IMG/VR virus record: IMGVR_UViG_3300020185_005105
Span: 1-36,636 of that record
Direction: 5' to 3' (one strand)
DNA length: 36,636 nucleotides
Origin: a virus
Below, piece by piece: positions 5,253 to 35,823 of the stretch. Positions within the stretch are counted from its first letter, which is position 1. Each line of letters starts with the position of its first letter. The notes under the pieces were generated by a model, which made no database searches, was not told the DNA's origin, and was given only the letters and a program-made list of their open reading frames with translations. The translations under genes and the position numbers were made by a program.

Positions 5253-8200
5253 ATGGCAGTAGGAGCAGGATTAAGAACACATGTAGTTGGCTTAAGAGAA
5301 GACATTGAGCGAATAGTCGCTGGCGTCAACAGAAAAGGAATAGTTATTAGGGTTAGAGCTAGTGACTTTACCCAGCCTTTAGGGCGCATGTCAGCAAAAG
5401 CTAACGAGTTCAGTAAATCTCTAGAAGCCTCTAATGCTCGCGTTATAGCCTTCGGCGCATCTGCAGCAATTATTGGTGGAGTTACAACCTCTTTTGCTCA
5501 ACTCTTCGTACAGGCTCAAAAAGTTGAAAAAATTCTTACAGATATTAATGTTGTTCTTGGCACAACTGCAAGCAATCTTCAGAAATTTGGTGACGGTTTA
5601 TTTAAAGTCGCAAAAAATACATCCCAAGCGCTAGAGGTTGCCGCAGAGGCGGCTTTAGAATTTTCTCGTCAAGGTTTATCAATGGAAGAAACCCTCAAAA
5701 GAACAAATGATGCCCTTATTTTGACGAGATTAACGGGAATAAAAGCTGCAGACGCCGTAAAAGGTTTAACTGCAGCAGTTAATGGTTTTGCCGATGCGGG
5801 GTTATCAACCACGCAAATAATTAATAAACTTGCCGCTGTAGATGTAAAATTTGCTGTCAGCGCTGACGATTTAGTTGACGCTCTCGCTCGCGCTGGAGCA
5901 GTCGCTCAAGATGCGGGTGTTAGTTTTGACCAACTAATAGGATCTGTTACTGCAGCTCAACAAATTACAGCTCGAGGTGGCGCAGTTATAGGTAATAGTT
6001 TTAAAACAATTTTTACAAGAATCCAAAGGAGTAGTACAATCACGAGGTTGGAAGAGCTTGGGGTTGCTGTTCGAGACATTCGAGGTAACACATTGCCTGC
6101 AATTACGGTTTTGACAAACTTATCAAAAGCTTACGATCAACTCGGAGACACAACAAAGGCAGCTGTAGCGGAACAAGTTGGTGGCGTTTTTCAAATCAAT
6201 ATATTAAAAGCGGCACTTAAAGATTTAGGCAATGAAACATCCCTATACGCTCAAGCTACGAAAATATCTAGTCAAGCGACAGACGAAGCGCAAAGAAAAA
6301 ACGATCAACTACAAAAAACATTAGCAGCAATCTCTAATCAAAGCTTCACAAATCTTAGAGAACTAACTGCAAATTTAGGTGAATTAACTGTAGCACCCGC
6401 CCTAAAGGAATTCCTTAAGAGTTTTAATCAAATAGCTGAAGTTATGAGTAAACTATTTGGTTCAGAAGAAGGCGAAAGCATAGGTGGCGATTTTGCTAAA
6501 GGATTCGCTAGAGCTTTCGGTTCCGTATTAACAGGTCCTGGCTTAATGGTTGGAGCTTTAATTTTTGGCAAATTATTTCAAATGGCTTTTAAGTTTGCTA
6601 AAAATTCGGTAAAAGATATTTTACAAATAAAAACGATCAAAGATCAAGAGCTTGCCATTCAGGAAGCTATTGTTGATGCTATGGTTCAAAATGTAGCCTT
6701 AAACAAAGAATTATTCAAATTAGACGGCGACCAATTAAAGCAAGAGCAAGTCATGTTAAAATTGCTTAGCAAACAAACTGCATTTCTAGAAAAGCAAAGG
6801 CAAATAGCCTCATCTATAGCACCAGGCTTAAGGGTGGCTGGCGTAAATGAAAATTTAACCGTCACAAAAGGATCGAAAAGTAAAAATCAAAAATCTGAAG
6901 GCTTTATACCTAATTATGCATCCAAAAATGCAGCAAATAACTACGGTGGAGTTACTCCATTGGAGAAGCAGTCCGAGTTAGCTGGAGCAATGAAGGCTGG
7001 ATATCAGCCAGGCTCCATTAAATCAACTAATATAAATGGCCTAGGGAGAGTGATTTATAATGACGCGGAAACTATCAAGCAGTTCCCAAATTTAAATCAG
7101 CCAGCAATCATGCCTCCACTGAACTCAAAAGCTGGCAGAAATTATAAGGTCGACTTTAGGGCTAAGCATGGATTCAATCCTTATGAGCAAGGTGGCAGTA
7201 ATAACTCAACTTATAGTAACGGTTTTATTTCTAATTTTGCCGCCCAACCTATGGCTGTAAAATCTGCAATTCGCGCTGCCCTTAAAAAAAGAGGGGCTAG
7301 AATGCGGCCCAATGACCCCAAGCTTGATTTTCATGTTCAAAGATATTTATCGGCGACGAAAAATCGCGACTTCCCCAATGAATTCATAAATATAGGTGGC
7401 CATAAAATTAACATGAATGAAATAACCTTAGCCTTAAAAAAGCAAGGTGGCTACCATAATTCTTTTAATGAAAGTAAAGCAATTAACCTTCAGGGTAGTT
7501 CAAACAACGAAACTTATAATAGCGGCTTGATACCTAATTTTGCGCTTGCAGCGCAAAGGCTTGGAAACACAAATATTTTAAGGTTGCCGACTGCTAAAAT
7601 GGTCACTCAAACTACTCAATCAGACTTCAAAGGAAATAAAGTAAAAGGCTGGCGCACTCTTGAAGCTCCGCTTGATAACGTTTTAAAGTTCGCGGCCAGT
7701 TACAAGAAACAATTTCAAGCATTAAAAAGTTTAGGTTTTAACTCCTTGCAAAGAAAAATGTATTTTGGTAATCAGCCAGAAACATTAACAAGGTCAGATA
7801 GGCAAGGTTTGCGTAGTAAAAATTTAAATAAAAAAGGTGATACGTATGAGGGAGTATTGTTTAAAAGTGGACTTAAAAATAAAGGCTACTCCAGAACTTA
7901 TGATCCAGATTCAAAGCAAGGGTACAAGAATGCTACGGTTGATTTTGCGAAGTCTGGTAAAATCCCAATTGAGGCTAAATTCGGCAAATTTGTTCCCGCT
8001 AATTTGTTAGCTAAAAGCATAAGGCTATCTAAAGATAAATATATAGAAAATTTTTTATCAAGCAAACGTTTTTCAGGCTTAGCTGCTGAAATGTCTGACA
8101 AGAAATTAGGGGAAGCTAAGAACACTCTCGATAAAATGGGCTTCCCAGATGCCAACAGTAATTTAATTGATACAATGGGCCTATCAAGCGGTTTTATTCC

Positions 8201-11200
8201 AAATTTTTCTGTTAAAAAAATACAAAATGTTATTGATGGAGATAGCGTAGTAGCCGATGTTTTTGTTGGAACGCAATCAATTGACCATCGACTTAAAGGT
8301 GTAGATGCGGTGGAAAAAAATCAAGCATTTGGAACTAGAGCTCAAACCCTAGCTAAATCAAGATATAAAAATAACAAAGAAGGCAGGACCCTACTTGAAC
8401 GCAATAGGGTATCTAAAGGTTCTGCCGCATATAACCGAGGCCTTTTTGCTGACGAACAATTAGCAAAAGATTTAGTTGCGAAAGGCTACGGAATTCCAGA
8501 TATTGGATACCTAAATAAAGCAGAATATAAATCATATGTCAGGGACGTTGAATTCGCCCGTAAAGCTAAAAAGGGTATATGGGGAAAAAGCCATTTCAGG
8601 GAAAATAAAAAAACTGGAAAGGTAGATTATCTTCACCCAAAAGCTAAAATGTATATACATCAATGGGAACTTTCTCAAGGAAAAAAATGGTCAGATATTA
8701 ATGTTAGAAATACTAGATTTAAAGGCGCCAATCAAGCTACATATGGATACGCCTCAGGCAAAGGGTCAAAAGGGAAAAATACATATAGTTTTGGTCTGGT
8801 CCCAAACTTTTCAAATCCGCTTCAAGATGCGATTCAAAGAGAATCAAATGCTGGAGTGCCAAAATCCTTAATTCGAGTAGATCAAGATAATAGTCTGCGC
8901 TCAACCCAAAACCCTATGGGTCTTGCTGTGATCAATACTAGAGATGAACCTGCTGGAGTAAAGCAAGGTATACAAAGGGCCAAACAAATGGGAATTGATC
9001 CAAAATCCCATGGAAGTAGCTCAGGATTTTTACCTAATTTTAATACATTTACTCAACAAGGAGGTAAGGCGGTCCATAGTTCAGGTAAATATGGATTTAA
9101 AGAAAAATCAAAAGGCGCAGAAAAAGCCACAAAAGAAGCAGGTGGCGCGATGGATGGATTAATGATGAAAATGTTTGCTTTGGCCACGGTTACTTATGCT
9201 TTAGACGGAGCGTTGGGTGAAGCTGAAAGTGGAATGTCTCAATTTATGAAAGTTACGAATTCTGCCATTATGGGCTTAAGTCAAGCATCAATGGTTGCGG
9301 GATTAGGTAGAGAAACAGGAAAGAGCTTAATGGCAAAAGGGGCCCAGAAGGGTAACCTAATGGGTGGGCTTCAAAAAGCTGGCGGTTTAGGCATGATGGC
9401 CCTTGGCCCCCTTGGCGCTGCAGTAGCTGTTGCGGTTCCTGTCTTTAATTCCTTAAAGGAAAACACAACTTTATTAGACAGCGGACTCGATACTTTACGA
9501 AAATCAGCAGAAAAAACCTCAAAAGGAATTAATGTTTTGGGTTCAGCAATGACAGCAGCCACAGGAATCCAAGAAACTCGCACTAAACTTGTTGAACTAG
9601 ATGCGTCCGCGATGTCTGGCACCTATCAAGGCGAAATGAAGCGTTTAAAATTAAACGCTCAGCTAATTAAACAGCAATCCGAACTAGGAAGTCAGGCAGC
9701 CACTCTAGGTAAAAATTTAAATTTGAGTGGTAAAGAAATTCAATTGATGACTTCGGGCACAGCTGAGGGAATGAAAAAACTGCAAGAAGCAATGCTTAAA
9801 GCCGAACAGTCAATGGCTGTGCAAAATGCGATGTCAGGCTTTATACTTGGGTCGAAAGGCGGTGGAATCTTTGGCGACGATCCAGATCCTTTAATGGCAG
9901 GAATTCAAAAGTTAAATTTAGCAAATATAGTGAGCACTTCAGTGGATTCTGATAAGTTAGAAGCTAATTACGCTACAATGCTAGAAAAAGTAAAGGAAGC
10001 AGGGGCCGAAGTGAATGATGTTCGTAAAAAGCAAACCGTCGAAGGTGGTCTTTTTAATGATGTTGAAAGATTTGGGGTCCCAAAAATTATTGAAGACTTC
10101 AAAAAATCAATCTCTGAATCAGATCTAGATTTAGTCCTAAAATCCCAACTTAGTGCAGCGTTAGACGGCGGGAAAAGCTTCGAAGAAATTGCAAAATTTT
10201 TGGAAGAACAGGAAATCACAGTCAAACAATTAAATGGCAAAAATAAAAAACAAGCCAATCAAACTGAAGTCAATTTACTTTTAATGCGAGAAATCGCCAA
10301 GCAAAGAAAAAAAATTCTTACAGGTTTAAAAATAGAAAGCATTGCTTACGAAAGTCAAATAAAAATATCTAAAATGGGTCAAGATTTTGATATACAAAAA
10401 CTAGTCCATCAAAATAAAATAATTGAGTCTTTAGGAATACTTTCCAATCAGTCTATTGCCGACTTACAAATGAAAGAGAAGTCTCAAGCAATTGACAATG
10501 ATTTTAATAATAAAAAAGAAGCCCTCAACAGAGAAGCTTTGCAAGCTCAAAGAGGTATAGTAAAAGATCTTTTTACTGAAGGGGGCAAATTTAACTCTGC
10601 AGAAATGTTTGCTGATTTAAGAAAATCTTTTACAACGGCATCAATGCTAGACGCCAATATGGAGCCTTTTACACCCCTTGGTCCAGATGTTCAAGGGCCA
10701 AGGAGGCCTTCTTTCTATGCAGGCGAGAAAACATTTGAAGGAGGCACAAAACAAGCACACGAAGGGCAATTAGAAATAATCAGAAAAAATCTTACAAAAG
10801 CTGGAGAAGAACAATTAGCTGAGCAATTAGAAGGCGTGGAAAATTACCAAAGGGCAAATAATGTAACAGTGGATTATTTATTAAGCTTGAAAAACCAAGC
10901 TCACCAAGCTTCTCTTTTATATAAACTTCAAGATCAAGGAATAATTCCTGCAAATATTGAAATAGAATCACTCTTAGAAGAAATTTCAGACATGGAAAGT
11001 GCAAAGCTTGATGCGGTTAAAAAAGAGAGAGAATTTAGAATAAAAAATCTAAATTTAGTCCGCAACGAATTAGAGGCTAACTCTAAGACTGTAGAATATG
11101 CAAAAGAAAGAGCGGCAGAATACGAAAGACAAAAAGCTGCCCTCGGAGGTATTACTGGAGTAATGAAAGCGGTAGAACAAAAATACTACGAAGAAATTGA

Positions 11201-13484
11201 TTCAAGAAATGAAAACCTTAAACAAGATAAAGAAATATCTAATGCAAAGTTGCAAGTATTAACTAGCGCAAAATATCAAAAAGATTTAGCGGAATCTCTT
11301 GAGGGAACAGTCCAGAAGCAATTGATCACTGAATTAGGATCGCTAGTCGAGCAAGGAGCTCGATTAGATGCAGAAGAAGAAGTAAGAAAAAACACTCAAT
11401 TATTCGCTAAAATTTTAGAAACCAAAGTAAAAAATGAAATTAAAGAATTAAACAAAGGGGCAGGGGATGATACTGATTTACTGCAAGAAGAGTTGAGGCA
11501 GGGTAAATTTCGTAGCGAAGCTAATGCTAATTACATAACCAGTCAAAACAATCTAACTCGCCAGCAGGAAAAGTTTACTGAAGCCTTGCAACGCGGCCAA
11601 TTCGGCTTGGATGCCTTGGCCGAAATTCAGGGAGCCGTTAATGATTTAATTAAAAGCATGGAAATGGCAAAAACTCAAATGGCATTTTATGCAAATCAAG
11701 AAGGCAGCGCGGGTACTGGCAATGAAATTAAAGGAGCTGAAGCTACCCTAAAATATGCTCAAGCTCAAAAAGAATTGAACATTGAACAAAACAAAGGCAC
11801 TCTGTTCGCTGACAGTATGGCAGTTAAAATTGCTGAGGCGAATGCTGAAATGGCTCGATTTGGTGAAACTTTAGCAAATACAACTTTTGACGCCGTGCAA
11901 GATGGATTTAAGGGCTTTGTGAACGATATGATTAGTGGCACAAAATCCCTTGGGGATGCGGCTTTGGGATTTGCTCATGGCATTGTAAGTAAAATACACG
12001 AACAACTCTTAAATAGAGCAACCAGTCAAATTACCGCAGGCATATTTGAAGGTTTAGGTATGGGGGCAACAACTTCCAAACAAGGCGGAGGTATAGTTTC
12101 AAGATATTCAACTGGAGGCAGTGTTGGCAGGGTGCCCGCGATGCTTACGAATGGAGAATATGTTGTGAAGAAAAAAATCGTCGACAAACTTGGCGTTAAT
12201 GATTTGAATAAAATCAATCAAACTGGGTCACTAGAAGATTTATACAACAAGCCAAATGAAAATGGCTTCGAGATGATGAATAGTGGAGGTTTAGCGATGC
12301 CTCCTATTATAAAGTTAAAAGAAGGTGGCTCGATTCAAAACTATCTAGCGAAACGAGATCAATCCTCTGACTCAGGCTCGCAAAACGAAAGAACTATTGT
12401 GGACGGCGAGGTAGTTAACACTTTATCTAATACGATTGCTAAATTTATGGGCGGATTAGCTAAATTTAGTTTTGGAGGCAGAGTTAAGGAAGCGACTAAA
12501 AATTCATTAATTTCAGACCCGAATGACACCGCTGGAGTTAAAATAGCTAAAGGTTCAGGTTATCTGGCGGGAACGGTTGCTGGTGGATATCAAGGCTACG
12601 AAGCCCAAGCGTATAGCGGTTCAGCCCCAATTAGAGTAAACCCCCTAAATACTAGATCCATGTTGAATGTTGACCCTTCTAGCCGCTCTATGAGCGCTCG
12701 ATTTAGGGCTCAAGATGATTACAGTAGTAAGTATGGCGATTATCTTCTTGATAAATATCAACATGATGTCAATCAAAGAAATGAAAAGCTAAAAAGCAGA
12801 GCCTCAATGATGCAAGGTATCGTCAACCAAATTGGAATGATGGGAGTCATGTATGGAACCGAGCAAGCTGTACGCTCAGCATTTCAACCTGAAAAAAGAA
12901 AAGAATACCATACAAGTATTGATAACTCTCAAGTCAACGCCTTTCGAGACTATCAAGTAAACCAACAAACAAAAAGCGATAAATTTTTAAATAAAAATAC
13001 CTCAATTTCTCAAAACAATATTAGTTCAGCTTATTCTATCGGCGGCGGAAATTTATCCAGCAATGAAGAACGATTTTTTGCCAAAAATTCTGGCTACAGT
13101 GAAGGAGGTAGAGTTCATGGCCCAGCAGGCATCGATAAAGTCGGACCTGTAATGCTTGATAGAGGTGAGTTTGTAATTAAGGCTTCTAGCGTCAATAAAG
13201 TAGAAAAACAATACCCAGGTTTCTTTGATCAATTAAACACCATGAAATTCAATCAAGGTGGAGTTGTGGACCCAAGCGCAAGTTCTGCTAATGTGCAAAA
13301 CTCAGAAGTTACCAACAATCAGAGTTCTTCCAGTAATGTAACGGTTAACATTAATGTGTCAGCAGGAGGAGAAACAACTGTAAATGGAGGCGCTGGCGAC
13401 CAACAAGCTTTTGCTTCGAAAATTAAAGAAGCTGTTGTTAATGTCATTTCTCAAGAAAAAAGAGTCGGAGGAATGCTTAGGTAA
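5253..13484 (+). CDS. Tail tape measure protein with embedded nuclease cassettes (2743 aa)
   Basis: Sets tail length and is normally ejected into the cell ahead of the DNA. ATG 5253 follows AAGGAAAAAGG. Residues ~90-340 match the TP901-type tape measure core (DINVVLGTTASNL, LEFSRQGLSMEETLKR, GGVFQINILKAAL). Hydrophobic stretches lie near 427-445 and 1375-1400. Residues ~550-1260 are atypical: six GF[IL]PNF-type motifs (Gly at 550, 657, 758, 980, 1181, 1258) separate compact cassettes, two of which look like nucleases. Residues ~1400-2200 are long charged helices. A lambda-H-like C-terminal helix region lies at ~2210-2270. Two tape-measure 'MLxxGExV' motifs follow at 2297 and 2634, and the end (VTVNINVSAG...GGMLR) is typical. 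The length far exceeds lambda H (853 aa). TMP identity is secure; cassette functions are inferred from motifs. Confidence 0.95.
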   Translation: MAVGAGLRTHVVGLREDIERIVAGVNRKGIVIRVRASDFTQPLGRMSAKANEFSKSLEASNARVIAFGASAAIIGGVTTSFAQLFVQAQKVEKILTDINVVLGTTASNLQKFGDGLFKVAKNTSQALEVAAEAALEFSRQGLSMEETLKRTNDALILTRLTGIKAADAVKGLTAAVNGFADAGLSTTQIINKLAAVDVKFAVSADDLVDALARAGAVAQDAGVSFDQLIGSVTAAQQITARGGAVIGNSFKTIFTRIQRSSTITRLEELGVAVRDIRGNTLPAITVLTNLSKAYDQLGDTTKAAVAEQVGGVFQINILKAALKDLGNETSLYAQATKISSQATDEAQRKNDQLQKTLAAISNQSFTNLRELTANLGELTVAPALKEFLKSFNQIAEVMSKLFGSEEGESIGGDFAKGFARAFGSVLTGPGLMVGALIFGKLFQMAFKFAKNSVKDILQIKTIKDQELAIQEAIVDAMVQNVALNKELFKLDGDQLKQEQVMLKLLSKQTAFLEKQRQIASSIAPGLRVAGVNENLTVTKGSKSKNQKSEGFIPNYASKNAANNYGGVTPLEKQSELAGAMKAGYQPGSIKSTNINGLGRVIYNDAETIKQFPNLNQPAIMPPLNSKAGRNYKVDFRAKHGFNPYEQGGSNNSTYSNGFISNFAAQPMAVKSAIRAALKKRGARMRPNDPKLDFHVQRYLSATKNRDFPNEFINIGGHKINMNEITLALKKQGGYHNSFNESKAINLQGSSNNETYNSGLIPNFALAAQRLGNTNILRLPTAKMVTQTTQSDFKGNKVKGWRTLEAPLDNVLKFAASYKKQFQALKSLGFNSLQRKMYFGNQPETLTRSDRQGLRSKNLNKKGDTYEGVLFKSGLKNKGYSRTYDPDSKQGYKNATVDFAKSGKIPIEAKFGKFVPANLLAKSIRLSKDKYIENFLSSKRFSGLAAEMSDKKLGEAKNTLDKMGFPDANSNLIDTMGLSSGFIPNFSVKKIQNVIDGDSVVADVFVGTQSIDHRLKGVDAVEKNQAFGTRAQTLAKSRYKNNKEGRTLLERNRVSKGSAAYNRGLFADEQLAKDLVAKGYGIPDIGYLNKAEYKSYVRDVEFARKAKKGIWGKSHFRENKKTGKVDYLHPKAKMYIHQWELSQGKKWSDINVRNTRFKGANQATYGYASGKGSKGKNTYSFGLVPNFSNPLQDAIQRESNAGVPKSLIRVDQDNSLRSTQNPMGLAVINTRDEPAGVKQGIQRAKQMGIDPKSHGSSSGFLPNFNTFTQQGGKAVHSSGKYGFKEKSKGAEKATKEAGGAMDGLMMKMFALATVTYALDGALGEAESGMSQFMKVTNSAIMGLSQASMVAGLGRETGKSLMAKGAQKGNLMGGLQKAGGLGMMALGPLGAAVAVAVPVFNSLKENTTLLDSGLDTLRKSAEKTSKGINVLGSAMTAATGIQETRTKLVELDASAMSGTYQGEMKRLKLNAQLIKQQSELGSQAATLGKNLNLSGKEIQLMTSGTAEGMKKLQEAMLKAEQSMAVQNAMSGFILGSKGGGIFGDDPDPLMAGIQKLNLANIVSTSVDSDKLEANYATMLEKVKEAGAEVNDVRKKQTVEGGLFNDVERFGVPKIIEDFKKSISESDLDLVLKSQLSAALDGGKSFEEIAKFLEEQEITVKQLNGKNKKQANQTEVNLLLMREIAKQRKKILTGLKIESIAYESQIKISKMGQDFDIQKLVHQNKIIESLGILSNQSIADLQMKEKSQAIDNDFNNKKEALNREALQAQRGIVKDLFTEGGKFNSAEMFADLRKSFTTASMLDANMEPFTPLGPDVQGPRRPSFYAGEKTFEGGTKQAHEGQLEIIRKNLTKAGEEQLAEQLEGVENYQRANNVTVDYLLSLKNQAHQASLLYKLQDQGIIPANIEIESLLEEISDMESAKLDAVKKEREFRIKNLNLVRNELEANSKTVEYAKERAAEYERQKAALGGITGVMKAVEQKYYEEIDSRNENLKQDKEISNAKLQVLTSAKYQKDLAESLEGTVQKQLITELGSLVEQGARLDAEEEVRKNTQLFAKILETKVKNEIKELNKGAGDDTDLLQEELRQGKFRSEANANYITSQNNLTRQQEKFTEALQRGQFGLDALAEIQGAVNDLIKSMEMAKTQMAFYANQEGSAGTGNEIKGAEATLKYAQAQKELNIEQNKGTLFADSMAVKIAEANAEMARFGETLANTTFDAVQDGFKGFVNDMISGTKSLGDAALGFAHGIVSKIHEQLLNRATSQITAGIFEGLGMGATTSKQGGGIVSRYSTGGSVGRVPAMLTNGEYVVKKKIVDKLGVNDLNKINQTGSLEDLYNKPNENGFEMMNSGGLAMPPIIKLKEGGSIQNYLAKRDQSSDSGSQNERTIVDGEVVNTLSNTIAKFMGGLAKFSFGGRVKEATKNSLISDPNDTAGVKIAKGSGYLAGTVAGGYQGYEAQAYSGSAPIRVNPLNTRSMLNVDPSSRSMSARFRAQDDYSSKYGDYLLDKYQHDVNQRNEKLKSRASMMQGIVNQIGMMGVMYGTEQAVRSAFQPEKRKEYHTSIDNSQVNAFRDYQVNQQTKSDKFLNKNTSISQNNISSAYSIGGGNLSSNEERFFAKNSGYSEGGRVHGPAGIDKVGPVMLDRGEFVIKASSVNKVEKQYPGFFDQLNTMKFNQGGVVDPSASSANVQNSEVTNNQSSSSNVTVNINVSAGGETTVNGGAGDQQAFASKIKEAVVNVISQEKRVGGMLR
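7527..8180 (+). other. PD-(D/E)XK-like nuclease cassette inside the tape measure protein
   Basis: This cassette lies between the third and fourth GF[IL]PNF motifs (residues ~760-977). It shows the order expected of a PD-(D/E)XK fold: Glu866 in a helix start (GDTYEGVLF), Asp897 (ATVDFAKSG), then Glu907-Ala-Lys909 (IPIEAKFGK), with a helix after (LLAKSIRLSKDKYIENFL). The D-x9-E-x-K spacing fits metal-dependent nucleases. PD-(D/E)XK families are very diverse and motif-only calls can be wrong, so this is a moderate call. The first ~90 residues of the cassette are not recognised. Confidence 0.55.
8211..8588 (+). other. SNase-like (thermonuclease) cassette inside the tape measure protein
   Basis: Residues ~987-1112, right after the fourth GF[IL]PNF motif, match staphylococcal nuclease in order. 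VIDGDSV gives Asp995 and Asp997 (calcium ligands), HRLKGVDAVE gives Arg1013, Asp1018 and Glu1021 (counterparts of R35, D40, E43), AYNRGLFAD gives Arg1062 (R87). The domain ends ARKAKKGIWG, the usual C-terminal signature. The Pro before the catalytic Glu is replaced by Val. All catalytic and metal-binding positions I can align are retained, so an active Ca-dependent DNA/RNA nuclease is predicted. Confidence 0.8.
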
Positions 13485-27137: not shown

Positions 27138-28205
27138 ATGAATGTACTATTAACTGCAAGCTTCGACAAAGGATTGTTCACCAACGGACTACAGCAAAAT
27201 ATTGTTTTTTTAGCTGAACTATTGCAGGATATAGGGCATACCCCTATAGTGGCGGTAAATCATAGTATCGATAAATGTGTAGACCCTCCTACAGGCATTC
27301 TAATTATAGAAGAAAAAGAAATCCTCGACTATGATTACGGTTACATTTGCCAAACAGGATATGTATTAGATAATCAGATGGTCGACAAAATTAAAGATAA
27401 AAATCCCGACACTAAAAATATACATATTCACTATGGCAACAGAATGCTTGCTGATATAGAGCAATGCAAATGGGACAATATTGCAATCTCTGGTCACAAA
27501 GTTGATGAGATATGGACATCGCCCCACTATGAAATAGCGATACCATACTTCAAGGCTTACTATAATACTCAAAAAGTCTTTGTGCTGCCTTATATTTGGG
27601 AGCCAAAATATATTGACATGCATGACAGGTTATGGACGAAAGCTGGCAAAAGCTGTAAATATGACCCCAAGAGACCGAAGAATATAGCCATAGTTGAGCC
27701 AAACTTAAACATGACAAAAAACTGCATGCCTTCTATTTTAATAGCCGAAGAAGCATTGCGCACCAATATTGATTTATTTGACAGGCTTACAGTTTATTGT
27801 TCTGACACAATTCGAGAAAAGAAATACTTTCGCTCTTGGATGTGGAATTTGAATTTACCAAAAGTTGGGAAAGTAGACTTTTCTCCAAGGAAAAGAATTT
27901 CAACCATCTTTTCATCAGAAGCCAATATAGTTATATCTCATCATTTAATGAACGCTTTAAATTATACTCACTTAGAAGCGCTTCACTTAAATATTCCATT
28001 AGTTCATAATTCAGAGTACATGAAAGGTGCGGGATATTATTATCCTGATTATGACATCCAAAAAGGGGCAAAGCAATTAATTGACGCTCTTACTTATCAT
28101 AATCAAAATTTAGAAGAATATAAATCTAGAGCAGAAAAAATAAAATATCAATTTTCGAGGCACAACCCCTTAGTTAAAGCGGAATATAAAAAATTATTTT
28201 CATAA
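27138..28205 (+). CDS. DUF2827-type glycosyltransferase-like protein, copy 1 (355 aa)
   Basis: Matches the DUF2827 family by its N-terminal FTNGLQQNIVFLAELLQDIG, the mid-protein IAIVEPNLNMTKNCMPSILI and the C-terminal HLEALHLNIPLVHNSEYMKG followed by GYYYPDYD. That last stretch is the family's counterpart of the sugar-nucleotide-binding end of GT-B enzymes. The family is uncharacterised; a GT-B-like glycosyltransferase role is inferred from fold-level similarity and from the surrounding glycosyltransferases. The next gene is a clear paralogue starting at the stop. A GTGTA string lies 15 bases before the ATG. Family membership is confident; substrate unknown. Confidence 0.85.
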   Translation: MNVLLTASFDKGLFTNGLQQNIVFLAELLQDIGHTPIVAVNHSIDKCVDPPTGILIIEEKEILDYDYGYICQTGYVLDNQMVDKIKDKNPDTKNIHIHYGNRMLADIEQCKWDNIAISGHKVDEIWTSPHYEIAIPYFKAYYNTQKVFVLPYIWEPKYIDMHDRLWTKAGKSCKYDPKRPKNIAIVEPNLNMTKNCMPSILIAEEALRTNIDLFDRLTVYCSDTIREKKYFRSWMWNLNLPKVGKVDFSPRKRISTIFSSEANIVISHHLMNALNYTHLEALHLNIPLVHNSEYMKGAGYYYPDYDIQKGAKQLIDALTYHNQNLEEYKSRAEKIKYQFSRHNPLVKAEYKKLFS

Positions 28206-29303
28206 ATGAAGATTGGTATAACTTTAGATATGTCTATAGCATTCTGGGCAAATGGAATGCAACAAAACATTGTCTTTCTTTATAGCCTATTAAAACAAAT
28301 ACCAGAAAATGATTGCTATTACATAACTCACAAAAAACCAGCTTACATTTTAAATAAAAAACATCAAGGCATGATGCTCGACGACCTCATGTCAGATGAT
28401 GGAGAGGCATTGGACGCTTTAATTATTGCTGGCTTTGATCTTCTTCCAGAAATGTATGATAAATTAAAGCAAAGAAATCCTAATATTAAAATTATATTAA
28501 TTCACTTCGGCAATAAACTAATGGACGATATTCATTATACAGTAGCTCCATCAAACTATAAAAAACAGCCCATTACTCCACCAAAATATTTATCTCAAAT
28601 CTGGATATCGCCCCATCATGAATACGGCAAAGAATATATAAAAACTTATTACCAGCATGAAGATGTTAGAGTTATACCTTATATATGGGATCCTTATTTT
28701 GTACAAGAAAAAATAAAAGAATTAAAAAATAAAAATTTATCACCATTTTTTAGCGCAGAAAAAAGTCGATCTGTCTGCGTTTTTGAGCCAAACATTTCTC
28801 ATCTAAAAAACTGTATTATTCCTGTCGCAATATGTGAAAGATTTGATTCACTACATCCCGATAAATTAAATGCGATCAATGTATTCTCTACCGATAGAAT
28901 TAGAGAAAAAGAGTATTTCTCCTCGTTAATGAAAAAATTTAAAATAGTGCAAAAAAAAGATTTTATATTTTTTAATAATCGCTGGGGTAGTTTGGATGCA
29001 TTAAGTAAATTTGGCAGTATTGTTGTGAGTCACCAAATTAATAATGAATTGAATTATTCTCATTTTGAGACATTATACTTAGGTCTTCCTTTAATTCATA
29101 ATTCTCCTAGACTAGAAAGTCATGGATACTATTACCCTGAGTTTGACGTAAAAATGGGAGCCAATCAACTCATGAGCGCAGTATTAAACCATCAGATTGT
29201 CCAACAAGATTACCAAAGGGAATCAAGAGAGTTTCTTCTTCCCTTTAGCCCTTATAATCAAAAAAATGCAGGAATATATAATTTATATTTAAATGATGAT
29301 TAA
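28206..29303 (+). CDS. DUF2827-type glycosyltransferase-like protein, copy 2 (365 aa)
   Basis: A tandem paralogue of the preceding gene, with equivalent blocks in order: FWANGMQQNIVFLYSLLKQI, VFEPNISHLKNCIIPVAI, ELNYSHFETLYLGLPLIHNS and GYYYPEFDVKMGA. It begins directly after the upstream stop and overlaps the GT25 gene by 11 bp. The copies have diverged well beyond recent duplication, so they probably add different residues or linkages. It has no signal peptide, so it acts in the host cytoplasm if it is a sugar-nucleotide-dependent enzyme. Substrate and acceptor cannot be read from the sequence. Confidence 0.85.
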   Translation: MKIGITLDMSIAFWANGMQQNIVFLYSLLKQIPENDCYYITHKKPAYILNKKHQGMMLDDLMSDDGEALDALIIAGFDLLPEMYDKLKQRNPNIKIILIHFGNKLMDDIHYTVAPSNYKKQPITPPKYLSQIWISPHHEYGKEYIKTYYQHEDVRVIPYIWDPYFVQEKIKELKNKNLSPFFSAEKSRSVCVFEPNISHLKNCIIPVAICERFDSLHPDKLNAINVFSTDRIREKEYFSSLMKKFKIVQKKDFIFFNNRWGSLDALSKFGSIVVSHQINNELNYSHFETLYLGLPLIHNSPRLESHGYYYPEFDVKMGANQLMSAVLNHQIVQQDYQRESREFLLPFSPYNQKNAGIYNLYLNDD

Positions 29304-30429
29304 TAGAGTATCAAAATCTTTTTTTATTAATTTAGACCGCCGAACGGATAGATTAGACCATATACATAAAACTTTACCTTTTTATGCAGAAAGGTTTTCA
29401 GCTGTAGATGCTAAAGATCTTACATTGACTGAAGAAATTAAAAAGCTATTTCCAGAAAAATACCACCAACTCACAAAAGCAGAAATCGCATGCGCGTTAA
29501 GTCATTACAGATTATGGAAGCAATTAACTCAAGATAAAAATAGCAATAACTATCTAATTCTAGAGGATGATGTAGTTTTCGAGGATGGTTTTCTTGAATT
29601 ATGGAATAACAAATTTAGTCAAGATTTACCCAAAAACTTCATGATCGCTTATCTGGGTGGCTGCCAACCTTGGAATAAAACGCATTATCATAATGTACTT
29701 GAATATAAAAACAATCATTTTTTTACAGTAAAAAAGAACGACTTCTTCACTCCAAACGACTACTACTGGCATATGAACGCATCTTCATATATAGTCAGCA
29801 AGCAAGCCGCCTCCTTACTTTGCCAATGGGTTGAGCAGTTTGGCTTTAATGCTGCTTTTGATGTTTTCATTATAAAATTCCTAACAACAAATAAATTATT
29901 CTCAGCCCCAGATAGAATACTTCATTTAAATCCGCTAATGGCTAGGCAAATTCATGAAGCGAATGGAAATATCGAAGCCGATAAAAAGTCTGACTTAAGG
30001 TTCTGCAATGATCGATTTGAAAAAGAGGAAAAGCAAAAATTAAAATTAATCTGGCAGGTTGATCCAAATAACCTAAAACAAACCTATGAAACAGATTGGA
30101 TTAGAGAAATTTTTTCAGAGCTTGATTTAGAAGAAATTATCGACACAGAATTTAAGGTTGTATCTGATGATTCCATTATTGTATATACTGATATTTGGCC
30201 AGCCAGCAAAAAAGGTGGTGACCAAGACGCTTTATATCTTTACCTCGATAAAGCTGCCAAGCAAAATAATGTCTCCATTGTTCATTTAGGCGATGAATAC
30301 ACTCATGCACGGACTGATCATTATGAAAATTTTCGCAACACATTTCGCACAACTTACAATGAGTCTGTATCTCATATGAAAAATGTCACTCAAATACCAT
30401 TAGGCTACAAGCGAGGATTCCATGATTAG
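29293..30429 (+). CDS. GT25 glycosyltransferase fused to N-terminal half of an exostosin-like domain (378 aa)
   Basis: Residues ~1-225 are a glycosyltransferase family 25 domain (LPS galactosyltransferase-like): FFINLDRRTDRLDHI, AEIACALSHYRLWKQL and the acidic metal/sugar motif E91-D92-D93 in NYLILEDDVVFEDGF. From ~293 the protein changes to the start of an exostosin-like domain (DDSIIVYTDIWPASKKGGDQ to IPLGYKRGF) and stops at once (HD, TAG). The rest of that domain appears two genes on, so this protein carries only its N-terminal half. It overlaps the DUF2827 gene by 11 bp and the sulfotransferase gene by 8 bp. The GT25 call is secure; the exostosin half is supported by how well the two pieces join. 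Confidence 0.85.
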   Translation: MMINRVSKSFFINLDRRTDRLDHIHKTLPFYAERFSAVDAKDLTLTEEIKKLFPEKYHQLTKAEIACALSHYRLWKQLTQDKNSNNYLILEDDVVFEDGFLELWNNKFSQDLPKNFMIAYLGGCQPWNKTHYHNVLEYKNNHFFTVKKNDFFTPNDYYWHMNASSYIVSKQAASLLCQWVEQFGFNAAFDVFIIKFLTTNKLFSAPDRILHLNPLMARQIHEANGNIEADKKSDLRFCNDRFEKEEKQKLKLIWQVDPNNLKQTYETDWIREIFSELDLEEIIDTEFKVVSDDSIIVYTDIWPASKKGGDQDALYLYLDKAAKQNNVSIVHLGDEYTHARTDHYENFRNTFRTTYNESVSHMKNVTQIPLGYKRGFHD

Positions 30430-31012
30430 CCACGAACACAAATGTATATTTATACATGTACCCAAAACTGCTGGCGAAAGCATTGAAACCGCTTTGATGG
30501 GTCGGCCAAACTGGGAAAACGATGATCCGAATTACGCAAGCTTAGGCTTGCCAGAAGGCAGCGAGATTGGAAAAGATAAGCATTATACTATTGCCCAATG
30601 GAAAGATCACATCAACTTTACTAATTATTTCAAATTCTCTTTTGTTAGAAACCCATGGGATTCAGCTTATTCATTTTATAGATATAGAAAAGAAAGAGAT
30701 AAGTTTGATCACAGTTTTACAGATTGGGTGAAATTAATTAATCCTAAATTCTGGAAAGAATTCTTGTCTCCACTGAAATATGTTTTATTAAACAATAAAG
30801 AGGGCGTAGACTTTATTGGAAGGTTTGAAGATATTGAGGCTGACTGGGATTATATTTGCTATAGATTATCGCAAGACATAAAACTACCTCATATAAATAA
30901 GGGGGACAACCAATCAGATTATATTGATCACTATGACAGCATTTCTCGTGATATTGTCCATGAACATCTTAAGGAAGATATAGAGTATTTTAATTATAAA
31001 TTTGAAGGATGA
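30422..31012 (+). CDS. PAPS-dependent sulfotransferase (196 aa)
   Basis: A compact sulfotransferase-2-type protein. The 5'-phosphosulfate loop is IHVPKTAGESIE (K15 the expected catalytic/PAPS residue), and the 3'-phosphate site is FVRNPWDSAYSFY (R76, S84). FIGRFEDIEADWDYIC and PHINKGDN are typical later motifs. It would move sulfate from PAPS to a sugar hydroxyl, giving an anionic glycan. The ATG lies inside the last codons of the GT25 gene and the TGA overlaps the next ATG, so it is inserted without any spacer between two parts of an exostosin-like domain. Family assignment is confident; the acceptor sugar is unknown. Confidence 0.9.
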   Translation: MISHEHKCIFIHVPKTAGESIETALMGRPNWENDDPNYASLGLPEGSEIGKDKHYTIAQWKDHINFTNYFKFSFVRNPWDSAYSFYRYRKERDKFDHSFTDWVKLINPKFWKEFLSPLKYVLLNNKEGVDFIGRFEDIEADWDYICYRLSQDIKLPHINKGDNQSDYIDHYDSISRDIVHEHLKEDIEYFNYKFEG

Positions 31013-32757
31013 AAACAATTTTTGACAAACCCTATGTATGGTCTTTTTTGGGACAAGTAAAAGGAAAGCCAACGCGCGAAAATATGCTTGCGGAACTCAA
31101 GCAAGTTCGCGGCGAACATTTTATACATATCACTGAACGCTGGAACGATCAGAACCAAATAGACGTCAAAAAATATAAAGAAATACTATCTGATAGCATT
31201 TTTGTTCCTTGCCCTAGCGGTTGGGGCGGCGCGAGAGGTTTGAAGGATTGCTTTAGGTTATATGAGGCATTAGAGGCTGGATCTATACCTATTGTCGAAA
31301 AAGATGATTTCGCCTATTTCGATAAATTTTTTCCCAATCACCCAATTCTGCAAACTCCTGATGACTGGCTTGGTATAAGTGATGATATGGAGTCTTTACT
31401 TGAAGAACCAAAAAAATTGCAAGAATATAATGAGGCATTAATAAAATGGTGGCAAGACTACAAGTCAAACTTAAAAACAGAAATCAAAAATAAGTTTTTA
31501 AATTCAAAAAAAAATATTTCTGTTATTATTCCAACTATTTGGCAAGCCAATGAATACCTCAAGAAATCCTTAATATCGCTAGAGTCTAACGCTTTTATAT
31601 CTGAAGTTTTAATTGTAAACAATGAAGTCAGTCAAACCCCCAGTTGGATAAGTGTTTTCAAGAAAGTTAAAGTATTAAATCAGAAAAAAAATTTATATTT
31701 TAACGGCAGCTTAAATCTAGCCGTTCCACTGTGTCAATCAGAGTTATGTTGCGTCTTGAATGATGACGCCAATATAGATAACGAATGCTTTGAGTTTATG
31801 TTAAACCAAGATATGAATTCTGTTGGCGCAGTGTTTATAGACCCCGCATGCATCAAGGGAGAGGGCGTACCAGATAGCCATCTTTTTAGTGGCCGCAACT
31901 TTAATGATGAAAAACTCTTGAAGCCCTATGATGAATTCTTTAATCACGGGCCTGGTATGATATTTTTCTTAAAACCTCAAAACTTCAAACCTATACCAGA
32001 AGAATTAAAACATCACTGCGGAGATAGATATATCTTTCAGTCTAATAAAAACGCTGGACTTAAAAACCTCTTCATTCAGGGCTTTCAACTAAAAATACCA
32101 TCAGTAGGTTCCGCCAGTCGATGCAGCGCAAATATTGAATCTGTGATTCGTCAGGATTATGTAGCAAGAGATAAAATATTTAACCTAAAACAAGCAAAAA
32201 AAAATGTTTTTGAATACATCAAACTTGACTTAAATTATTCACCAAAAAATAAATGGAAAATTATTTCTCATAAATTGAAATCAGGGTCTGATATTTTGTG
32301 TGTTGGTGGTGATTTATTGCAGGTGAGCGACGATATTGATATTAAAAATATTTGCGAAAAAGATATAGATATAGCTTTATCAAAACACAATTATAGCGCT
32401 TGGGGTCAAAAACTAGAAGGGGAGTTGTCGTCTTGTTTTATATACATTAAAAGCACCCCTCAGACTATTAATTTAATTGATAGTTTATTGTTTCAAATAG
32501 AGGGTATTAAAACTGATCAAAGATTTTTTAGTTATTCTGAGCAATATATTGACCTCGCTTTAGAAAAATCATTAACTGCAAGCAATATCAAATTTCAATC
32601 AATTCCAAATGATAAATTTGCTGTATCTGAAGAAATATACGGCAAAAATATAGAACATTACAAATCCAATCCTCCTGCTTATATTAATTTTGATAGAAAT
32701 GTATATACAGAAGAATTAAAAAAAATATATTTTAATGCGTATACTAATATTAAATGA
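31009..32757 (+). CDS. Exostosin-like C-terminal half + GT2-type glycosyltransferase + third GT-A-like domain (582 aa)
   Basis: Residues ~1-160 are the second half of an exostosin-like domain, beginning abruptly (KPYVWSFLGQVKGKPTREN, SDSIFVPCPSGWGG, LYEALEAGSIPIVEKDDFAY). These are the family's central and C-terminal motifs with no N-terminal part. Residues ~168-390 resemble a GT2-type domain (ISVIIPTIWQANEYLKKSL; VLNDDANID with D252-D253 as the DxD-like acid pair). Residues ~398-582 look like a third, GT-A-like region (SGSDILCVGGDLLQVSDDID) with a degraded metal motif. The start overlaps the sulfotransferase stop; the end overlaps the next gene by 23 bp. First two assignments are good; the third is tentative. 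Confidence 0.85.
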   Translation: MKTIFDKPYVWSFLGQVKGKPTRENMLAELKQVRGEHFIHITERWNDQNQIDVKKYKEILSDSIFVPCPSGWGGARGLKDCFRLYEALEAGSIPIVEKDDFAYFDKFFPNHPILQTPDDWLGISDDMESLLEEPKKLQEYNEALIKWWQDYKSNLKTEIKNKFLNSKKNISVIIPTIWQANEYLKKSLISLESNAFISEVLIVNNEVSQTPSWISVFKKVKVLNQKKNLYFNGSLNLAVPLCQSELCCVLNDDANIDNECFEFMLNQDMNSVGAVFIDPACIKGEGVPDSHLFSGRNFNDEKLLKPYDEFFNHGPGMIFFLKPQNFKPIPEELKHHCGDRYIFQSNKNAGLKNLFIQGFQLKIPSVGSASRCSANIESVIRQDYVARDKIFNLKQAKKNVFEYIKLDLNYSPKNKWKIISHKLKSGSDILCVGGDLLQVSDDIDIKNICEKDIDIALSKHNYSAWGQKLEGELSSCFIYIKSTPQTINLIDSLLFQIEGIKTDQRFFSYSEQYIDLALEKSLTASNIKFQSIPNDKFAVSEEIYGKNIEHYKSNPPAYINFDRNVYTEELKKIYFNAYTNIK

Positions 32758-34426
32758 TAGACCTTGGCATTATGAGTGCTATATTCATATTATTGATTTT
32801 TGCATAGCATACAATATAGAAGTTGATATTTTAGAAGCTTATTCAGATTCTTTGGGTGTTAAAGAATTTTACTTAAATCATTTTAGAGACAATATAAGGT
32901 ATGTTAAGGGAGTTAATAAATTAAAAGACAAATGTCTAGCTGATCCATTTACTAACATTAAATATGATAAAGTTTTTTTAGTTACCGATAACTTTATTAA
33001 AACGCAATATTTTAATTACTTTAAAAGTTTAGAGCCCAACTCAAGCGCTGACGATCAATTAATATTCATAGATCATTCTAATGAAATTCGAAACCGATTC
33101 TCTAACCATATTGACATAAGACATTTTCCAGACAAAAATAATAACTATGCTTATACATGCATTGATTTAATCTCAAAAGAAGAAAAGCAAGAATTTTTAT
33201 CACAAGAAAAACAAACCAACATATTAATATCAGCTAATCCAAGCAACATTAATATCACCAAAGAAATACAAACCTTAAATGATATTAATCCCAATGCTCA
33301 TATCCATTGGGTGTCACGCGATTTATCAAAACTAAAACAATTTAAACTCAATAACATATCTTACTATGAGTCATTAAATCAGACTGAATTAAATGAACTA
33401 TTTAAAAAATCCCATTATGTTTATGTTCCAAAATACCACAATAAAAATTATCGAACCGAATCAACAACTGGCATTTTAGGATTTGCTTACAGCTATTTGT
33501 GTCAAGTCGTATGGGGAGGCGCAAATTATAACAAGCATTACAGGCTATATTCTCCATTCGAATATTCTAAAGGTTTAGGTGTAGATGATAATTCAAATAT
33601 CAACTTAGTAGCAAAAGAACGCCGTGAACTCATAAATCATAGAAATAAAGTTTTTTCTAGCTTCCTTACTGAAAGCAAAATAAATTTATTATATTTCAAG
33701 GGCAGGAATTTTGGTAATTTTGGAGACGAACTTTCTCCATATATTGTAAAAAAAATTCTTAATAATGAAAATATAGCCGAAAACGGCAACCCAGAAAACC
33801 ATAAAAAAAATTTAATAGCGCTCGGGTCGTATATTCAAACAGCTCAGGATAATTTTTATATATTTGGGTCGGGAGTTAGAGCTTTGTTCCATGATCTCAA
33901 TTTTAACAAATTAAATATTATAAGTGTTCGTGGACCATTAACCAGAAAAGTCTTGTTGGCAAAAAATATTGATTGCCCACAGGTTTACGGGGATCCAGCT
34001 CTACTTCTCCCAGAGTTTTACCAACCAGATAAAATCACGAATCTATCAAGAAAAATTGGCGTAGTTCCGCATCTGAGTCAAATTCAAAATTTTAAAAACC
34101 CTAACCCTGCAAAGTATTTTATTATTGATCCTACCCAATATTGGAAAGTTGTCATTGATCAAATTTATTCATGTAAATGTGTTTTAGCTTCATCTCTACA
34201 TGGGTTGATTTGTGCTGATGCATACAATATCCCCAATTTGTGGTTTAGGCAAAAAATTCAAGAGGGTAATTTTAAATTCTTAGATTATTTCGCTAGCCAA
34301 GGTAGGAAAAAAGTTTATATTTCAAGTTTAGAAGAATTCTGTGAATCAAAGTTGTATAATGACGGCAATAAAATTGACATGAATATAGCATTAAAAAAAT
34401 TTAAAAACAGTAATTTATTGAAATGA
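32735..34426 (+). CDS. GT-B-like domain fused to polysaccharide pyruvyl transferase (563 aa)
   Basis: The C-terminal ~250 residues match the polysaccharide pyruvyl transferase family: NFGDELSPYIV (G330-D331-E332), LIALGSYIQTAQDNFYIFGS, SVRGPLTRKVLLAKNIDCPQ, VYGDPALLLPEFY, and SSLHGLICADAYNIP with H489. Such enzymes add a pyruvate ketal to a sugar using PEP. The N-terminal ~310 residues look like a separate glycosyltransferase (start MRILILNDRPWHYECYIHII; later HYVYVPKYHNKNYRTESTTG and VVWGGANYNK), probably GT-B, though I do not recognise the family. ATG 32735 lies inside the previous gene. Pyruvyl transferase call is strong; the N-terminal call is moderate. Confidence 0.85.
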   Translation: MRILILNDRPWHYECYIHIIDFCIAYNIEVDILEAYSDSLGVKEFYLNHFRDNIRYVKGVNKLKDKCLADPFTNIKYDKVFLVTDNFIKTQYFNYFKSLEPNSSADDQLIFIDHSNEIRNRFSNHIDIRHFPDKNNNYAYTCIDLISKEEKQEFLSQEKQTNILISANPSNINITKEIQTLNDINPNAHIHWVSRDLSKLKQFKLNNISYYESLNQTELNELFKKSHYVYVPKYHNKNYRTESTTGILGFAYSYLCQVVWGGANYNKHYRLYSPFEYSKGLGVDDNSNINLVAKERRELINHRNKVFSSFLTESKINLLYFKGRNFGNFGDELSPYIVKKILNNENIAENGNPENHKKNLIALGSYIQTAQDNFYIFGSGVRALFHDLNFNKLNIISVRGPLTRKVLLAKNIDCPQVYGDPALLLPEFYQPDKITNLSRKIGVVPHLSQIQNFKNPNPAKYFIIDPTQYWKVVIDQIYSCKCVLASSLHGLICADAYNIPNLWFRQKIQEGNFKFLDYFASQGRKKVYISSLEEFCESKLYNDGNKIDMNIALKKFKNSNLLK

Positions 34427-35823
34427 AAATAGCAATAACAACATTATATACTCCAGAAATAGCAGACTTTTCAGTAGAAGCTGTTAAGAATTTTAAAATG
34501 TATTGTGATTTACATGGTTATGATTTATTTTCATACAACAAAACATTAAAGGAGGGATTGCGCGGTAACTGGTGCAAACCTAAAGTTGTACTCAATCATA
34601 TTAAAGACTATGATTATGTTGTGTGGCTGGATAGCGATATAGCTATATTGGATATTAATCGAAAGCTAGAAGATATTATTGAACCACATAAAGACAAGCA
34701 TTTTATTGCTACGGATGACATGGGTGGGTGGAAACTAAATAATGGATTCATGATTTTTAAAAATACAAAATATGTTAAAGACATGTTGGGTGTGTTATGG
34801 AAAATGCAATCTCAGTTCACCAATAAGCGCAGGGGTGACCAAAAGTTTTTTATAAATTTTATTGAACAGCTTAAGTTAACGGAAAAAACTTACCACCTTT
34901 ACCCTCAATCAGAATTATGTGCGCCCCTCTTAATTAAAAACCATCATTCCTTTTCCGCGCATTTAATGGGCATTCACATAAATGACGTTCGTAAGGAATA
35001 TATAAAATATATCAACGATCAAAACACTACTGTTTTAAATTTAAAATCAAAACAAAAACAATTTTTACACCTAAGAGATAAATGGGCAGATTTTATTGAT
35101 GGTAAAATATTTGGCAGATATAGAAATTTACATGACTGGATTGGGTTCGTCTCGGAAACTGTTAAAATCACAAAGCCGCCCAAGGAAAAATATTCTTGCT
35201 ATAATGCTGGAAAAAAAATTGGCATAGTAACTTTATACACTTCTGAAATTGCCGATTTTGGAGCGCATGCAGAAATTAGCATCAAGCAATACGCTGAAAA
35301 ACAGGGTTATACATTTCATGTTTATCGCGAAACATTAGATAGCAATACTCATCCTAATTGGTCAAAACCTCGAGCAATTATGAATCATATTGATGATCAT
35401 GACGTTATCATATGGATGGATGCCGATACGATTATATTTAATCCTGAGAAAAAATTTGAAACTATTCTCGCTCGATGTGTTCCAATGAAAAAAGTTATTG
35501 CATGCAGAGATGTGGGAATAAAAGGTTCAATGCTTAATAGTGGAGTCTTAATGTTCCGCAATCATCAGTACTCAAAAAATATAATTAAAAAATGGATGGC
35601 ACATGAATGCGATAAGTCTGGATTATATACAGGAGGTGGAGACCAAAATGTTTTATGTGATATCTTAAAAAAAGTAGATGGATTTGGACATAATACAAAA
35701 ATTTTTCCAATGAATAAATTTAATACCGACCCTAGATTAGTTGATGATGATACATTTATATTGCATTTTATGGCTTATCCGCACCCTCTTAAAAAGATTT
35801 TTATGAGTTATTGGAATAGTTAA
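34423..35823 (+). CDS. Tandem-duplicated GT34-like galactosyltransferase (466 aa)
   Basis: Two copies of a GMA12/MNN10-type (GT34-like) domain. Copy one (~1-210): KIAITTLYTPEIADFSVEAV, NWCKPKVVLNHI, WLDSDIAI (D70-x-D72), LNNGFMIFKN and GDQKFF. Copy two (~265-466): KIGIVTLYTSEIADFGAHAE, NWSKPRAIMNHI, WMDADTII (D333-x-D335), LNSGVLMFRN and GDQNVL. Both metal-binding DxD motifs are intact, so both may be active and add different or repeated sugars. A linker with RYRNLHDWIGF joins them. ATGA overlaps the upstream gene. It is the last gene of the cassette, and the fibre gene begins about 50 bp on. Family call is good; sugar donor is unknown. Confidence 0.88.
   Translation: MKIAITTLYTPEIADFSVEAVKNFKMYCDLHGYDLFSYNKTLKEGLRGNWCKPKVVLNHIKDYDYVVWLDSDIAILDINRKLEDIIEPHKDKHFIATDDMGGWKLNNGFMIFKNTKYVKDMLGVLWKMQSQFTNKRRGDQKFFINFIEQLKLTEKTYHLYPQSELCAPLLIKNHHSFSAHLMGIHINDVRKEYIKYINDQNTTVLNLKSKQKQFLHLRDKWADFIDGKIFGRYRNLHDWIGFVSETVKITKPPKEKYSCYNAGKKIGIVTLYTSEIADFGAHAEISIKQYAEKQGYTFHVYRETLDSNTHPNWSKPRAIMNHIDDHDVIIWMDADTIIFNPEKKFETILARCVPMKKVIACRDVGIKGSMLNSGVLMFRNHQYSKNIIKKWMAHECDKSGLYTGGGDQNVLCDILKKVDGFGHNTKIFPMNKFNTDPRLVDDDTFILHFMAYPHPLKKIFMSYWNS

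Follow-up and report, generated by a model that had tools for sequence, protein, structure and literature searches.

Tape measure proteins (TMPs) line the tail tube, are expelled from it, and insert in the cell membrane, and a study of contractile injection systems makes the case that a TMP-like effector domain can adjust to the tube and then fold once it has been ejected (PMC13277306). Polyvalent proteins, which occur in phages and conjugative elements, are thought to be injected with DNA (PMC5512222), and neither "tape measure" nor "SNase" appears in the text of the paper that describes them. A survey of mosaicism among phage proteins, from 2023, could confirm no genuine recent case in TMPs (PMC10684548). 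Here we describe a phage TMP that carries an internal row of exchangeable domains, including a staphylococcal nuclease-like (SNase) domain, bordered by short motifs of the GFIPNF type. A limited literature search found no description of a TMP with such a motif-bordered cargo row, and the search returned no mention of the GFIPNFA motif.

The window analyzed here is a whole viral record of 36,636 nucleotides (IMG/VR IMGVR_UViG_3300020185_005105), probably a fragment of a genome, and the tape measure gene and its parts described below lie on its plus strand. Its open reading frame at 5253–13484 encodes 2743 residues, none of them cysteine, and is the tape measure protein of a siphovirus: it matches the Pfam profile PhageMin_Tail (E 7.8e-23; TMP backbone domain at aa 120–311, 5610–6185) and six PHROG tape-measure families (best 6.4e-45), and profile searches place it among tail genes, with lambda L- and K-type genes downstream. 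The gene that follows directly, at 13484, has a weak match to a minor tail protein family. Searches of cultured phages found none with a GFIPNF-type TMP; the relatives they contain match within the N-terminal domain, at ~30% identity or less. Since the four matches from a search of bacterial genomes all sit in contigs of metagenome-assembled genomes, which are possibly co-binned phage, we claim no host. Beyond the tail genes, a block at 27138–35823 encodes two DUF2827 proteins, a family 25 glycosyltransferase, a sulfotransferase, an RXYLT1_C/GT2 protein, a polysaccharide pyruvyl transferase, and a GT34-like protein, which may serve virion decoration or change host surface glycans.

An earlier note on this DNA, made by reading the letters alone, had proposed an SNase-like domain inside the TMP at 8211–8588, and both the profile search and the structure prediction that it called for bear this out. 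Scanned alone, the segment matches PF00565 (SNase) at E 6.4e-6 with 27 bits, above the cutoff of 21, and phmmer finds thermonuclease among PDB sequences (8e-5). An AlphaFold model built from the aligned sequences of 13 TMP-borne SNases has a pLDDT of 83 overall and above 90 in the core; Foldseek ranks staphylococcal nuclease first (E 2.8e-7), and VIA-align superposes the two with a Z of 12.4 and an rmsd of 2.8 Å over 119 residues, so that the OB fold of the family is recovered by both tools. With every tested feature present, the domain is a member of the SNase family. The fold spans residues 987–1111 of the TMP and ends, as the note had said, in KKGIWG (aa 1106–1111); it is followed by a family-specific C-terminal extension, in which the alignment of 13 sequences reveals a conserved HPKA..Y..Q segment. 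The end that the note gave, 8588, thus falls near the end of the fold, but the unit that is exchanged extends to 8792.

The active-site residues that the note listed are all present, in order and in register with staphylococcal nuclease. Alignment to the PDB thermonuclease pairs Asp995 and Asp997 with D19 and D21 (8235–8243), Arg1013, Asp1018, and Glu1021 with R35, D40, and E43 (8289–8315), and Arg1062 with R87, next to the also retained Tyr1060 (Y85; both at 8430–8438). Given the domain-long match of the model to nuclease structures, these residues are predicted to converge in space. Staphylococcal Thr41 is replaced by Ala1019, as it is in 13 of 13 TMP-borne SNases; Thr41 binds Ca2+ via its backbone carbonyl, so the change need not matter. 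The catalytic residues and Tyr1060 are invariant in all 13 TMP-borne SNases, which come from 13 contigs, and the other twelve share 30–55% identity with the domain in the window. Pairs that include the window sequence are at or near saturation in our estimate of dN/dS, and the pair L124/L125 gives a ratio of ~0.24, indicating purifying selection. From the invariant catalytic set and this ratio we take the domain to be maintained for catalysis, as the note had argued, and we have high confidence that it is catalytically competent. The note's contrast between an active domain and a decayed insert holds in that the invariant set in 13 sequences leads us to reject decay; insert it is nonetheless, as a cassette that can be swapped and has GFIPNF motifs at its borders.

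The cassette belongs to an array of six motif copies (G[FL][ILV][PS]N[FY][ASN]) at aa 550–1264 of the TMP, between the conserved N-terminal domain and the later TMP regions. The array starts at GFIPNYA (6900–6920), continues with GFISNFA (7221–7241) and GLIPNFA (7524–7544), and reaches the left border of the SNase cassette at the fourth copy, GFIPNFS (8190–8210), the point at which similarity to the related TMPs L155 and L156 stops. The SNase cargo, fold and C-terminal extension together (aa 987–1180, 8211–8792), lies exactly between this copy and the fifth, GLVPNFS (8793–8813), its right border in the motif map and in the comparison with L155/L156. A conserved last module, NPMGLAVINTRDEPAGVKQGI (8814–9023), then leads to the closing motif GFLPNFN (9024–9044); this short NPMGLxVxNTRDEP module has 18 invariant columns in an alignment of 23 sequences and often stands last in the arrays of GFIPNF TMPs. 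Upstream of the SNase, the cargo at aa 765–979 (7545–8189) is 82% identical in L155. Its invariant D133, E143, and K145 (alignment numbering), in a D...E-x-K arrangement, suggest a candidate PD-(D/E)XK nuclease; against its model (pLDDT 82), no Foldseek hit fell below an E of 0.7 and no VIA-align hit rose above a Z of 2.7, and a PDB sequence search gave no match.

Comparison of close relatives reveals how such cassettes move. L155 and L156 are 82–88% identical to the window TMP at the DNA level in the longest flanking matches. Their own flanks, left and right of the slot that holds the SNase in the window, match each other at more than 99.7% identity, and yet the slot itself carries cargo of 271 and 341 residues, respectively, with no similarity found between the two cargoes and with both junctions inside the motif codons. 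The pair is a genuine recent case of mosaicism in TMPs, of the kind that the 2023 survey could not confirm. Likewise, L135 has an SNase where L004 has another domain in the same slot, between flanks that are 93% identical. Our data set includes 22 deduplicated exchange events, of which a few lie beyond the cargo region. Breakpoints fall within 30 nt of a motif in 68% of cases versus 18% for random cargo-region positions, and protein alignments that end in the cargo region do so within 8 residues of a motif in 43% versus 8% at random; since some of these counts share ancestry, both comparisons are descriptive and do not constitute a test. We regard it as nearly certain that the SNase segment is a swappable cassette. 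Cassettes duplicate too, as indicated by a cargo module (KLFKAYDGGG...) repeated in tandem almost perfectly at aa 662–1094 of the L155 reading frame. In L101 and L018, the slot that holds the SNase in L135 and L087 contains GRxFE...(A/V)DF domains, which matched no family and are perhaps alternative nucleases.

The same design recurs widely: cargo segments bordered by G[FLY][IVL]PN[FY] motifs occur in the TMPs of more than 100 environmental viral contigs. A DNA pattern back-translated from GFIPNFA hit at least 120 viral stretches, versus 12 for a reversed-motif control over the whole collection; most matches lie within long reading frames, at two to eight copies each, and 116 long reading frames hold two or more. 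The motif alone recovered the SNase-bearing loci L006, L087, L102, and L109. The 190 cargo segments fall into ~66 homology clusters, defined as having no mutual similarity detected at the cutoff used. Profile matches identify SNases, GNAT acetyltransferases, P-loop NTPases, and a GHKL-type ATPase (HATPase), and the majority of the cargo has no profile match. The two largest clusters share an FE...FD...DxK pattern, are related to each other, and gave no convincing match to any solved structure. Two further SNase-bearing TMPs, L132 (SNase at 7997–8476) and L136 (SNase at 9989–10498), lack GFIPNF; their SNases are flanked on either side by KYAxGGxV / RFxxGGxx stretches, which suggests a second linker type and means that the arrangement is broader than one motif.

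A second property that the cargo shares with its carrier is the avoidance of cysteine. The six tail genes that follow the cysteine-free TMP of the window encode 28 cysteines in 3675 residues. Across 90 non-redundant TMPs, with shared ancestry among them left in, the cargo regions contain 1 cysteine in 51,365 residues, versus 0.65% in the other genes of the same loci, about a quarter of which (74 of 280) also lack it. Base composition is not the cause, because TGY triplets are common out of frame in the cargo regions (3,110 of 102,550, versus a single in-frame occurrence). Among cultured phages, five of the six TMPs checked, up to 2285 aa long, are free of cysteine (lambda H (L164), HK97 gp16 (L170), TP901-1 tmp (L169), Staley TMP (L165), and SPbeta yomI (L166)), and the sixth, P2 T, has one. 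The cargo therefore looks to be following an apparently general TMP rule, on which there was no paper among the matches listed by our literature search. Two standalone phage SNases, encoded outside TMPs, have 4 and 8 cysteines, unlike the SNase of the window and the other TMP-borne copies, which have none. The simplest reading is that the cargo stays joined to the TMP throughout assembly and ejection; possible reasons for the rule are that disulfides or thiols would cause trouble where several chains are packed tightly in the tube, or when the envelope is crossed.

We synthesize these observations as follows. The SNase would be made as part of the TMP, joined to it by GFIPNF-type linkers, and packed, extended or otherwise not natively folded, within the tail tube. 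As infection begins, the TMP would be expelled with its SNase into the host envelope and cytoplasm, where the nuclease would refold and cut nucleic acid, with DNA or RNA of the host as the likeliest substrate. In the producing cell it would stay latent, since free Ca2+ is low there, and the phage's own DNA would be safe during assembly. Recombination at the linkers would swap cargo among related phages, and such swapping fits selection by host defenses. We consider it quite likely that the SNase rides in the virion, and it probably acts in the newly infected cell; host nucleic acid as its main target is a tentative choice. The whole reading, in which the SNase is an exchangeable nuclease delivered by the tail early in infection, is in our judgment reasonably probable. 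Staphylococcal nuclease needs Ca2+ far above the levels of the bacterial cytosol, so activity there requires entry of Ca2+ at injection or the use of another metal. Few TMP copies enter each cell, so that damage to the host chromosome would be limited. More broadly, we lean toward viewing the GFIPNF TMPs of environmental siphoviruses as a general delivery platform that threads a row of interchangeable, cysteine-free effectors into each new host, with the linker as a recombination joint and perhaps a signal for tube packing or release.

Other places and times of action can be imagined. The cargo could act in the periplasm, or from a membrane-anchored TMP, and destroy the DNA of competing phages (superinfection exclusion) in place of host nucleic acid in the cytoplasm. 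The Ca2+ dependence of staphylococcal nuclease would suit this idea, Ca2+ being plentiful outside the cytoplasm, as would the finding that TMPs end in the cell membrane (PMC13277306); we nevertheless judge it unlikely, as the GNAT, P-loop, and HATPase cargo resemble enzymes needing cytosolic cofactors and the phage's own DNA crosses the same space. Slightly less likely still is that the linkers are protease sites from which the cargo is released in the producing cell, to act late without being injected. Short, strongly conserved motifs at cargo borders are what such sites might look like, and protein cleavage is common in phage assembly, but cysteine is as strictly avoided in the cargo as in TMPs, which would be unexpected for free cytosolic enzymes, and no assembly protease was recognized among the scanned genes of the window (itself a fragment), only a JAB/NlpC-P60 tail-tip gene.

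The SNase might also have decayed, or might serve purely as structural filler for tuning the length of the tail, given that TMP length is known to set the length of the tail and that cassettes alter it. This we consider very improbable: the catalytic residues do not vary among 13 diverged copies, structure prediction yields a compact SNase fold, and cargo of different lengths is tolerated in one slot (271 versus 341 aa in L155/L156). Delivery of an active nuclease by the tail remains our preferred reading. If it is true, the enzymes that long-tailed phages bring in with the tail ruler form a changing set and arrive ahead of all phage gene expression, and the cargo is a place to seek early takeover and counter-defense functions. 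The linker motif provides a simple search handle, the sister genes L155/L156 and L004/L135 are natural swaps that offer ready-made tests, and the extension of the cysteine ban to the cargo enzymes suggests that what rides in a tail is physically constrained.

Set against known systems, the SNase of the window has in common with staphylococcal nuclease and PF00565 the fold, the catalytic Asp/Arg/Glu set, the Tyr85 equivalent, and the C-terminal GIW, and it differs in being embedded in a TMP, flanked by GFIPNF motifs, changed from Thr to Ala at position 41, and extended at the C-terminus. Polyvalent proteins unite several disparate enzyme domains in a single large chain, a design that the GFIPNF TMPs may share (across our set the cargo matches GNAT, P-loop, HATPase, and SNase profiles; within the window TMP, the SNase is the one established), but here the carrier is a TMP and the cargo an exchangeable row marked by a fixed motif. 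Polymorphic and MuF-linked phage toxins likewise join a conserved carrier to toxin-like cassettes that recombination exchanges, whereas GFIPNF cargo is internal, comes several to a protein, and is bordered by short linker motifs; in the window it sits at aa 550–1264 of 2743, away from the C-terminal placement of polymorphic toxins, and no immunity gene was identified, the next gene having only its minor-tail-protein match. We do not claim the window TMP as a polyvalent protein or a polymorphic toxin. TMPs with peptidoglycan hydrolase domains, such as SPbeta YomI (annotated as a transglycosylase in related records), also hold an enzyme within the TMP; those hydrolases target the cell wall, whereas GFIPNF cargo includes nuclease-like and other non-wall domains. 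Sle1 and Tme of contractile injection systems (PMC13277306) similarly consist of a TMP-like carrier and a functional domain that can be exchanged, and they are loaded into a tail tube. Their particles are bacterial injection devices, and the TMP of the window belongs to an infecting phage; the variable domain of Sle1 is single and C-terminal, while the GFIPNF cargo forms an internal row.
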